Assembly: GCA_019090885.1 (NCBI GenBank)
Contig: JAHRVC010000055.1
Span: 1 to 34,294, forward strand
Direction of reading: 5' to 3'
From: Marinosulfonomonas sp.
GTDB taxonomy: Bacteria; Pseudomonadota; Alphaproteobacteria; Rhodobacterales; Rhodobacteraceae
Length of the DNA stretch: 34,294 bases
The notes below the pieces were generated by a model. That model made no database searches, was not told where the DNA came from, and saw nothing but the letters and a program-made list of their open reading frames with translations. Shown here piece after piece: positions 31,049 through 34,294 of this stretch; positions within the stretch are counted from its first letter, which is position 1; every line of letters starts with the position of its first letter. Both the position numbers and the translations under genes were made by a program.

Positions 31049-32353
31049 ATGAAGATTGCGATGATTGGAACCGGATATGTTGGGCTGGTGTCTGGCGTAT
31101 GTTTCTCGGATTTCGGGCATGAAGTTGTCTGTGTCGACAACAACCCCGACAAAATCGCCATGCTGGAACGCCTGGAAGTGCCGATTTATGAACCCGGTCT
31201 GGAAGATTTGCTGGCAAAAAACGTTGCTGCCGGACGTCTAGCTTTTTCCGGTGATCTGGCTGGCGCAGTGTCCGACGCAGGTGCAGTTTTTATCGCGGTA
31301 GGAACGCCGACAAGGCGGGGCGATGGCCACGCGGACCTGACCTATGTATTCGCAGCGGCCGAACAGATCGCAAAATCGATATCCGGCTACACGGTCATTG
31401 TAACCAAATCGACAGTTCCCTTGGGAACAAACCGCCGCGTCAAAGAAATTATCGCAAAAGCAAATCCGGACGCAGAATTCGATGTGGTATCCAACCCCGA
31501 GTTTTTGCGTGAAGGTGCGGCGATCGATGATTTCATGCGCCCGGATCGTGTGGTTGTTGGTCTGGAAACGGATGCGGCCGAGACAGTTATGCGTGAAATC
31601 TATCGGCCGTTGTTTCTGCGCGACTTTCCAGTTGTCATCACTGATTTGGAAAGCGCTGAGATGATAAAATACGCAGCCAACGCCTTTTTGGCCACCAAAA
31701 TTACCTTCATCAATGAAATTGCGGCGCTTTGCGAAAAAGTCGGCGCGGATGTAAAGCAAGTGTCAAAAGGCATGGGGCTGGACGGACGTATCGGCAATAA
31801 ATTTCTACACGCTGGCCCCGGTTATGGCGGGTCATGTTTTCCCAAAGACACCAGCGCACTTGCGCGGATCGGGCAGGAACATGCGGTTCCCATGCAAATC
31901 ACCGAGGCCGTTATCAAGGTAAACGAAGAAGTGAAACGCCGCATGGTCCAAAAGATCGAGGATCTTTGCGGTGGTTCGTTCAACGGCAAAACGATTGCTG
32001 TTCTGGGCGTTACGTTCAAACCCAACACCGATGATATGCGCGACGCGCCATCACTGACAATTGTTCCCGCCATGATCGGCAGCGGCGCAAAAGTTCGTGT
32101 CGTCGATCCCCAAGGAAGGCGTGAAGGCTTAGACCTGTTGCCCGGCGCTCAGTGGTGCGAGGACGCCTACACAGCCGTTCAGGATGCAGACGCCGTAGTT
32201 ATATTGACCGAATGGAACGAATTCAGGGCTTTGGACTTAAAGCGGTTGGCGCAGGGGATGTCGAACGCCCGGATGGCCGACTTGCGGAATATATACTCGG
32301 AAAACGATGTCAAAAGCGCCGGGTTTGAAAAGTATGTGCCGGTAGGGCGGTAA
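31049..32353 (+). CDS. ugd: UDP-glucose 6-dehydrogenase
   Basis: This 434-residue enzyme oxidises UDP-glucose to UDP-glucuronate with NAD+, supplying precursors for exopolysaccharide or LPS. The N-terminal Rossmann motif GTGYVG is at residues 7-12. The catalytic cysteine is C263 in GPGYGGSCFPKDTSAL, and NPEFLREGAAIDDFMRPDR is the family's substrate segment. GAGGCG precedes the ATG. The 133-base gap after the thiolase marks the end of the catabolic region. A related UDP-sugar dehydrogenase is the alternative. Confidence 0.94.
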   Translation: MKIAMIGTGYVGLVSGVCFSDFGHEVVCVDNNPDKIAMLERLEVPIYEPGLEDLLAKNVAAGRLAFSGDLAGAVSDAGAVFIAVGTPTRRGDGHADLTYVFAAAEQIAKSISGYTVIVTKSTVPLGTNRRVKEIIAKANPDAEFDVVSNPEFLREGAAIDDFMRPDRVVVGLETDAAETVMREIYRPLFLRDFPVVITDLESAEMIKYAANAFLATKITFINEIAALCEKVGADVKQVSKGMGLDGRIGNKFLHAGPGYGGSCFPKDTSALARIGQEHAVPMQITEAVIKVNEEVKRRMVQKIEDLCGGSFNGKTIAVLGVTFKPNTDDMRDAPSLTIVPAMIGSGAKVRVVDPQGRREGLDLLPGAQWCEDAYTAVQDADAVVILTEWNEFRALDLKRLAQGMSNARMADLRNIYSENDVKSAGFEKYVPVGR

Positions 32354-32441: not shown

Positions 32442-34166
32442 ATGTCCGACCCAAACACGAAATTCGATATCAATAGTGTTGAAGTACTAACACCGAACCT
32501 GAAACGCCGGTTGTCAGGCGTTACGGCAACAATTGCTCGGCTTGTGCCAATTCAGGCAGACCAGATTTCCATTGCCGCAATCGGGCCGGGCTTGCCGGCT
32601 GGTTTGCCCCATATCTCGATTTCGCGGTTGTTTCTGTTGCCAAAACAAAAGCTGCGGGTTTGGCATGCAAGACGCAATACTGAGATGCTGTTGGGCCTAT
32701 TCCTGCGCCATATGGTCAGACTAAATCTGGCATTGTTATTTACCTCTGCATCGCAAAGACACCACACGCGGTTTACGCGGTGGCTAATTTCAAAAATGGA
32801 TGACGTTATTGCGACATCTGAAAAAACAGCCGCCTACCTGCTTCAGCCGGCCAGTGTCATCCACCACGGCATAGATACGGAACGGTTTTGCCCGTGTTCG
32901 GATCAGGCAGATTTACGGGGGAACCTGGGGCTACCGAATGGTGTTCTAATCGGGTGTTACGGTCGCATACGACACCAGAAAGGCACGGATGCCTTTGTTT
33001 CGGCGATGATTGAGTTGCTGCCCGCCATGCCCGATCACCACGCTTTGGTAATGGGGCGCGCAACGCAATCGCATGCCGAGTTTTTGACTAGCCTGAAGCA
33101 GCGCGTTGCGGACGCTGGATTGTCAGACAGAATTCATTTCCTGCCAGAAGTCCCGGTTGATCAGATGCCGGCTTGGTATCAAGTGCTTGACCTGTTCGTA
33201 GCGCCGCAAAGGTGGGAAGGTTTTGGACTGACGCCGCTGGAAGCAATGTCCTGCGGTGTGCCTGCTGTCGCAACGCGCGTTGGTGCCTTTGAAGAGCTGA
33301 TCGTTGACGGCAAAACCGGCAACCTTGTTGCACCCGATGACGTCCCAAGCCTGACGGCCGCGACGCGCGAATATTTGGAAGAACCAGACATGAGGCGCAG
33401 TTCAAGTATTGCGGCACGTGAACATGTGGTCGCAAACTTCGGGCTGGAACGTGAAGCGGCCAAGATCATCGGCGTTTATCGCGACTTGCTGGATGCTCCG
33501 GTTCTCAGGTGCCAGCCTCGGCTGTTTTCCCTGAACACCTTAATTAAGCGTTTAGAGTTTCAATTTGAAAAAAGACTGCCGGGCAGCAGCGTTCAGGAAC
33601 GATCCGCAGACACGGCTGACCTGATGCAGGAACTTGCCGGAAAGACCGTTTCGATTGTTGGCAATGCGCGGGCGCTTGGGAATGGGAATAACGGCGCTGA
33701 CATCGATTTGGCCGATATCGTAATCCGGATAAATCGTGCGCCACGCCCAGCAAAAAAATCGCATGGCTTGAAAACTGGCTGGCTGGCTTTGGCCACCGAT
33801 TTACCGATAGCACAGGCGCGCAAGCTAAGGCCAAACCGCGTTTTGTGGATGAGCCCCAAGACCAAACGAATACCGTTCTGGGCGATTGGATTGCCGGGTT
33901 TTTTCGTGCACCCACAAACACAATGGCAACGCCTTAACGATCAACTTCAATCACCACCGACCACCGGCCTGATGATCATTGACCTTATCAGAAGCTCTGA
34001 CGCAAAAACGGTCAAGCTTTACGGCTTTGATTTCTTTGCATCAAAATCACTGACCGGGCGGCGTGACGCGTCGCAAGTTCCGCATGACTTTTCCGCCGAA
34101 TTGGCCTTTGTCAGCGACATTCTGGCCAATGATCCGCGGTTTCATCTGATACCCTCATCCGGTTGA
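32442..34166 (+). CDS. Two-domain glycosyltransferase: LpcC-like GT4 plus C-terminal sialyltransferase (GT29)-like domain
   Basis: This 574-residue protein looks like a fusion. Residues about 1-355 resemble LpcC, a GT-B mannosyltransferase of the LPS core: LTPNLKRRLSGVTATIARLV (16-35), VWHARRNTEM (73-82), FTSASQRHHTRFTRWL (100-115), VIHHGID (139-145), and the GT4 donor motif EGFGLTPLEAMSCG (259-272). Residues about 400-574 form a second domain. It opens with VSIVGNARALGNGNNG, continues ADIDLADIVIRINRAP (to 434), and later has PTTGLMIIDL and VKLYGFD (506-530), then H548-x4-E553. These match the order of sialyl motifs L, S and VS of GT29. No membrane segment is visible. It likely adds sugars to LPS or a surface glycan in the cytoplasm. 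The donor of the second domain is unknown. Confidence 0.82.
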   Translation: MSDPNTKFDINSVEVLTPNLKRRLSGVTATIARLVPIQADQISIAAIGPGLPAGLPHISISRLFLLPKQKLRVWHARRNTEMLLGLFLRHMVRLNLALLFTSASQRHHTRFTRWLISKMDDVIATSEKTAAYLLQPASVIHHGIDTERFCPCSDQADLRGNLGLPNGVLIGCYGRIRHQKGTDAFVSAMIELLPAMPDHHALVMGRATQSHAEFLTSLKQRVADAGLSDRIHFLPEVPVDQMPAWYQVLDLFVAPQRWEGFGLTPLEAMSCGVPAVATRVGAFEELIVDGKTGNLVAPDDVPSLTAATREYLEEPDMRRSSSIAAREHVVANFGLEREAAKIIGVYRDLLDAPVLRCQPRLFSLNTLIKRLEFQFEKRLPGSSVQERSADTADLMQELAGKTVSIVGNARALGNGNNGADIDLADIVIRINRAPRPAKKSHGLKTGWLALATDLPIAQARKLRPNRVLWMSPKTKRIPFWAIGLPGFFVHPQTQWQRLNDQLQSPPTTGLMIIDLIRSSDAKTVKLYGFDFFASKSLTGRRDASQVPHDFSAELAFVSDILANDPRFHLIPSSG

Positions 34167-34250
34167 TCCATCTATAGGTGACTATTCTCTTTCCCCCGGC
34201 CCCGCTTTGCTCTAATCACCGCCTCCGTTACCAGACTTAAGGAGACCCTG

Positions 34251-34294
34251 ATGGGCTATCGCGTCGTAGTTGTTGGCGGCACCGGAAATGTGGG
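34251..34294 (+). CDS. asd: Aspartate-semialdehyde dehydrogenase, N-terminal fragment (runs off the window)
   Basis: Only the first 15 codons are present. They read MGYRVVVVGGTGNVG, a Rossmann start with GxxGxxG very like aspartate-semialdehyde dehydrogenase of Rhodobacterales as I recall it. AAGGAG sits 7 bases upstream of the ATG. Another NAD(P)-binding enzyme with the same start is possible. Confidence 0.65.
   Translation, partial: MGYRVVVVGGTGNV

Follow-up and report, generated by a model that had tools for sequence, protein, structure and literature searches.

A GT4::GT29 fusion protein of Marinosulfonomonas sp. as a candidate bifunctional glycosyltransferase of the LPS core

Bacterial GT29 proteins were reported in 2018, 19 of the 23 coming from alphaproteobacteria; they were proposed as the source of eukaryotic sialyltransferases, their function in bacteria being described as not predictable (Petit et al. 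2018, PMC5811610). In plants, Kdo in RG-II depends on the GT29 protein RCKT1, which has been proposed to act as a CMP-Kdo transferase (PMC11288761). For the GT4 family, LpcC is the core mannosyltransferase of R. leguminosarum, with Brucella WadC as its orthologue (PMC3349745), and WadC has been assigned to KdoI (PMC6171495). Also, acid sugars are known from the LOS of marine bacteria, being Neu on Kdo in Loktanella rosea (PMC3210612) and Neu-(2-6)-Glc-(1-5)-Kdo in Idiomarina zobellii (PMC9695755).

The window analyzed here (the whole 34,294-nucleotide stretch of Marinosulfonomonas sp. DNA) carries a gene in which a GT4 and a GT29 domain are joined. What is new is this fusion, together with a split of the GT29 sequences into two clades by probable donor, bacterial GT29 domains being already known since 2018.

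Domain layout and predicted fold

The features of the locus are listed below; residue numbers in the fusion protein correspond to the columns of alignment A1 plus 354.

31049..32353, + strand: ugd, nucleotide-sugar (UDP-glucose type) dehydrogenase, upstream of the fusion (PF03721/00984/03720; TIGR03026 over cut-off)
32442..34166, + strand: GT4::GT29 fusion gene, ATG start, 574 aa (orthologue in locus L003 with the same 574-aa fusion)
32442..33491, + strand: N-terminal GT4 domain, residues 1-350, predicted LpsB/LpcC/WadC type, with E259-x7-E267 (PF00534)
33492..33623, + strand: linker, residues 351-394 (dN/dS, alignment A1)
33624..34163, + strand: C-terminal GT29 domain, residues 395-574 (PF00777, AF2 model, Foldseek and VIA)
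33642..33743, + strand: sialylmotif L, residues 401-434, KTVSIVGNARAL...RINRAP (A1)
33957..34031, + strand: sialylmotif S, residues 506-530, PTTGLMII...LYGFD (A1)
34083..34100, + strand: sialylmotif VS, H548-D-F-S-A-E553 (A1, hhalign)
34251..34294, + strand: beginning of asd, MGYRVVVVGGTGNV, truncated where the contig ends (identified by its conserved N-terminus)

The sequence-only reading had claimed a fusion of a GT4 transferase with a domain carrying sialyltransferase motifs at 32442-34166, and the profile searches confirm it at these positions. PF00534 is matched over residues 166-327 (Pfam, E 4e-32), and PF00777, with a curated cut-off of 23 bits, is matched at 31.2 bits by the whole protein and at 35.1 bits by residues 355-574 alone, as well as by 21/21 of the aligned homologues. 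Moreover, the A1 profile retrieved from the PDB eight GT29 sialyltransferase sequences (E 1.7e-6 to 2.4e-3), the remaining matches being two synaptotagmins at chance level (E 0.32). Because PF00777 is found in every homologue and the PDB search finds GT29 sialyltransferases, the match to this family is not by chance. In A1, the linker is made up of the GT4 C-terminus and the N-terminal helix of stand-alone GT29 proteins.

The N-terminal half shares 51.4% identity over 97% with a Sinorhizobium meliloti GT4, which bears out its earlier description as LpcC-like. The matched gene follows greA and is itself followed by three glycosyltransferases and an Lrp-type gene, which is the arrangement described as greA-lpsB-lpsCDE (PMC3788101). 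In the fusion, E259 and E267 of the GT4 EX7E motif are invariant, and the AF2 pLDDT is mostly 80-98 across residues 31-350. LpsB corresponds to LpcC, and, judged by sequence comparison, this half is very probably an LpsB-type GT4.

For residues 355-574, an AF2 model was obtained with a pLDDT of 84.8 and a pTM of 0.83; in the full-length prediction the GT29 half was poorly modelled, and only two alignment rows cover that half. The best VIA match of the model is ST3Gal1 (2wnb; Z 14.4, 186 aligned, 3.5 Å), the first 13 entries being ST3Gal1, ST6GalNAc2, ST8SiaIII, and ST6Gal1 (Z 14.4 to 12.0), and the bacterial GT42 sialyltransferases reach at most Z 9.8. Also, the top 25 Foldseek matches are all GT29 (best E 1.3e-7). 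Both comparisons place the GT29 fold closest, as the earlier reading had anticipated, and from this model it is practically certain that the C-terminal domain would adopt the GT29 fold (GT-A variant 2).

The positions that had been read from the letters for motif L, motif S, and the histidine and glutamate of motif VS are right in A1. The invariant residues are G407, N408, R410, R429, N431, A433, and P434 in motif L, P506, T507, T508, and G509 together with G528, F529, and D530 in motif S, and H548 and E553 in motif VS, these last two being conserved in 21/21 homologues, as had been expected of them. In addition, hhalign pairs the VS motif of the fusion clade with HNFARE of the neuB-linked clade described below. 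Motifs L, S, and VS are CMP-donor features of GT29. Sialylmotif III (H/Y-Y-Y/F-E/D), which the sequence-only reading does not mention, is absent between motifs S and VS in 21/21 sequences of A1, its place reading ASxSLxGxRxAxQV, and a loop at residues 533-537 within this region has low confidence in the AF2 model. This absence is compatible with GT29 membership because motif III is likewise missing from two of the three Arabidopsis GT29. Membership in the GT29 family by sequence and fold is well supported; functional membership among sialyltransferases is not supported.

Gene pairing and origin of the fusion

Twenty related loci were found, all from Rhodobacterales or alphaproteobacterial by title, and only one of them carries the same fusion (L003, from Marinosulfonomonas sp. 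DC_out80, with the same sequence as the contig of genome G001), the other related loci having a stand-alone GT29 of about 205 residues. A 4-nt overlap of the GT4 stop with the GT29 start was found in 17/17 of the stand-alone pairs checked (ATGA 12 times, GTGA 5 times), and the two genes are probably translated together. This overlap puts GT4 and GT29 in different frames; therefore, a fusion needs an insertion or deletion. A further GT4::GT29 fusion, of 564 aa, is present in another genus (G228). Apart from the window's own genome, 1/290 genomes was matched in a class-wide search, and a GT29 search on plasmids gave one weak match only. Whereas overlapping genes for the two enzymes are common in the family, their physical fusion is rare. 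The unusualness claimed for the protein from its sequence is thus retained for the physical fusion but not for the GT4/GT29 unit, nor for a GT29 domain in a marine alphaproteobacterium, such domains being already reported by Petit et al. (2018, PMC5811610). That the two halves act in the same pathway is regarded as highly likely.

The window gene and its L003 counterpart, which come from two sister species, differ in 22% of their residues with no gap. The dN/dS between them is 0.175 for the whole gene, 0.157 for GT4, 0.134 for GT29, and 0.338 for the linker, which is the fastest-evolving part; the values for GT4 and GT29 indicate that both halves are kept under purifying selection. The GT4 tree separates two fusion lineages, a single clade being rejected (AU p 3e-52), and in the GT29 tree the three fusions form one group, though weakly supported (88/77). 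Two separate fusions, or one fusion and a later exchange of the GT4, are both compatible with these trees. Apparent long GT29 fusions in L019, L027, and L042 were rejected, their upstream part being an out-of-frame reading of the neighboring gene, and those in L044 and L045, looked at less closely, were left out of the count. A mixed alignment of GT4 and GT29 (A2) misplaced the GT29 rows and was left out of the results.

Several relatives share the gene order ugd (often an MFS gene), GT4, GT29, asd, with asd downstream of GT29 in most and ugd upstream in the window, L003, L004, L008, L074, L086, L088, and L093. The contig of the window ends 44 nt into asd. Its last 91 nt (34204-34294) are identical to L003 6198-6288, though the species differ strongly. 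Such ends suggest that the two contigs meet a branch point, probably a shared k-mer node, of one k=91 assembly; the fused genes thus represent two species but probably a single assembly.

Some GT29 copies of clade A, the clade of the window, are paired with a pyruvyl-transferase-like gene and not with a GT4, for which reason the acceptor may vary. For example, the window's genome has a second clade-A-like GT29 gene (L076, G000:C213, 2176-3829) overlapping a PS_pyruv_trans (PF04230) gene, and this copy may have a different acceptor. The same pair is also present in L077, L081, L084, L087, and L090; in the asd locus of G131/L087, the pyruvyl-transferase-like gene lies before GT29 in place of the GT4, which suggests that the partner genes of GT29 are interchangeable. 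Also, GT29 is fused to this alternative partner, PS_pyruv_trans, in a 792-aa protein that additionally shows a weak TPR match (L031 616-2994, G207).

Proposed function and donor supply

The protein would be a bifunctional LPS-core glycosyltransferase derived from the fusion of two normally overlapping genes. The inner Kdo of Kdo-lipid A would first receive a hexose, at best guess mannose, from its N-terminal LpsB/LpcC-type GT4. The GT29 half would be an inverting CMP-ulosonate transferase, in which the VS histidine likely serves as base; it would then transfer an acid sugar onto this hexose, most likely Kdo with CMP-Kdo as donor, and a short core with a strong negative charge would result. Donor, acceptor, sequence of the two additions, and location in the LPS are inferred in this model. 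The LPS core is a likely site of action, against which counts that no O-antigen or core gene cluster was found around the locus. Serial addition of two sugars, first by the GT4 and then by the GT29 half, is somewhat favored, and the complete model is given an even chance, an estimate that takes its components as strongly dependent on each other.

On the other hand, the halves could glycosylate different acceptors, not in series, and be fused only because they are co-translated. This is consistent with the pairing of some clade-A GT29 with PS_pyruv_trans, even in an asd locus (G131/L087), since GT29 would then not depend on the GT4 product at every locus. Nonetheless, the conserved pairing with its 4-nt overlap, and a fusion that occurred in two lineages or was reused with a different GT4, make separate acceptors unlikely, and serial addition is preferred.

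Regarding the donor, GT29 sequences from 297 Rhodobacteraceae genomes were sorted into clades by motif. GT29 is present in 41/297 genomes and NeuB in 87/297; 28 genomes contain clade A, eight contain clade B, and five have others. NeuB is found in 2/28 clade-A genomes versus 85/269 of the others (Fisher p 0.0045, shared ancestry ignored), and the 26 NeuB-negative clade-A genomes are nearly all at least 98% complete. For clade B, NeuB is present in 8/8 genomes (Fisher p 4e-5, likewise ignoring shared ancestry) and is adjacent to GT29 in at least seven. In the window's genome, a draft 92% complete, no match to NeuB (PF03102) was found, and at E<=1e-8 PF02348 matches a single protein, KdsB. No other convincing CMP-acid-sugar synthetase was found; KdsB scores 164 bits with TIGR00466 (equivalog cut-off 155), so a CMP-Kdo donor is available. 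A weaker second PF02348 match was discarded, being GlmU by reading. At the same threshold, PF02348 is found once in 24/26 NeuB-negative clade-A genomes and twice in 2/26, and the two clade-B genomes tested have two such proteins each. With no NeuB and KdsB as the single PF02348 protein, Kdo, or a Kdo-derived sugar, is therefore the simplest donor, and CMP-Kdo is the rather more probable donor of the GT29 half. The sequence-only reading had offered a nonulosonate or a Kdo-type sugar; the Kdo type fits the genome better than a nonulosonate. The two clade-A genomes that do have NeuB count against the Kdo model.

Clade B forms one group in the tree (support 100/99) and carries TYYNP at the place of motif III. 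In the loci L068 977-7226 and L070 1333-7047, the clade-B GT29 lies beside neuB; in L068, NeuC and two WaaA-type genes are also next to it, and genes similar to these are present in L070. Both are candidate LPS-core sialylation loci that may account for a core of the Loktanella rosea type. The clade-B GT29, at 5556-6197 in L068, is directly preceded by a gene of about 255-260 aa (L068 4774-5556, L070 4549-5316), for which no significant Pfam match was found in either locus and no NCBIfam match in L068. Tentatively, the two Rhodobacteraceae clades may use different donors, the neuB-linked clade sialylating LPS Kdo and the LpsB-linked clade transferring Kdo.

A true sialyl- or nonulosonate transferase, its donor coming from scavenged sugar or from genes missing from the draft, would agree with the incompleteness of the window's genome (92%), with motif L, best matched by animal sialyltransferases, and with the Neu possible in marine Rhodobacterales LPS, as in Loktanella rosea (PMC3210612), or the Neu5Ac of R. 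capsulatus LPS (PMC9631793). However, this is improbable given that NeuB is missing in 26/28 clade-A genomes, nearly all of them at least 98% complete, that 24/26 have a single CMP-acid-sugar synthetase, and that clade A is without motif III, at whose place the neuB-linked clade carries TYYNP. Use of a non-CMP donor by the GT29 half, such as a UDP-sugar, is held equally improbable: the ugd upstream in the window and the seven loci named above would supply UDP-glucuronate to either half, but ugd is non-adjacent in many relatives, other pathways could use UDP-GlcA, and motifs L, S, and VS, features of CMP donors, are kept. In favor of such a donor, GALT29A, a galactosyltransferase by name, is listed among plant GT29 (PMC11288761); that GT29 members can change donor also counts against the Kdo model. 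Finally, that two real genes were joined only by an error of assembly or reading frame, although both fused contigs of the genus end at the same 91-nt stretch of probably one k=91 assembly, is rejected as extremely unlikely because two species with 22% residue difference keep the same open 574-codon frame without a gap and under purifying selection (dN/dS 0.175, linker 0.338), the fusion being present also in the other genus (G228).

Comparison with known systems

No assigned function was found in the literature searched for bacterial GT29, though they are the proposed source of eukaryotic sialyltransferases. Here, acceptor and donor can be predicted concretely from the fusion, from the conserved partnership with a known core transferase, and from the NeuB-based split of clades, and the neuB-linked clade provides a candidate gene for the unusual Neu-on-Kdo core of Loktanella rosea. 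If the two clades do use different donors, clade A would be a new type of Kdo transferase inside the sialyltransferase family. Moreover, the switch between Kdo and sialic acid, as between plants and animals, would then have a parallel in bacteria, near the proposed origin of the eukaryotic enzymes in alphaproteobacteria. The literature search yielded no usable paper on a possible role of LpcB as a GT29 Kdo transferase.

Rhizobial LpsB/LpcC and Brucella WadC, LPS-core transferases of which LpcC and WadC are assigned to mannose, resemble nearly the whole GT4 half (about 51% identity for the S. meliloti protein); however, they are stand-alone, with no GT29 partner seen. The bacterial GT29 of Petit et al. 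(2018, PMC5811610) share with the fusion PF00777, an alphaproteobacterial origin, motifs L, S, and VS, and the lack of a transmembrane anchor, but that set is reported with motif III, which the fusion's clade lacks, and no description of a GT4 fusion was found in the passages covered. Animal GT29 (ST3Gal1, ST8SiaIII, ST6GalNAc2, and ST6Gal1) have the same fold (Z 11-14) and motifs L, S, and VS. In contrast to them, the fusion's clade is without motif III and is GT4-fused or -paired, the identity is about 16-22%, and no CMP-sialic acid supply was found for the fusion's genome (no PF03102 match, 92% complete). By description, RCKT1/MGP2 is a GT29 with a probable Kdo donor in a cell without sialic acid synthesis, like the fusion, although it is a plant Golgi membrane protein acting on pectin (PMC11288761). 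As for the proposed product, the LOS of Idiomarina zobellii offers the same arrangement, a ulosonate on a hexose on Kdo (PMC9695755).
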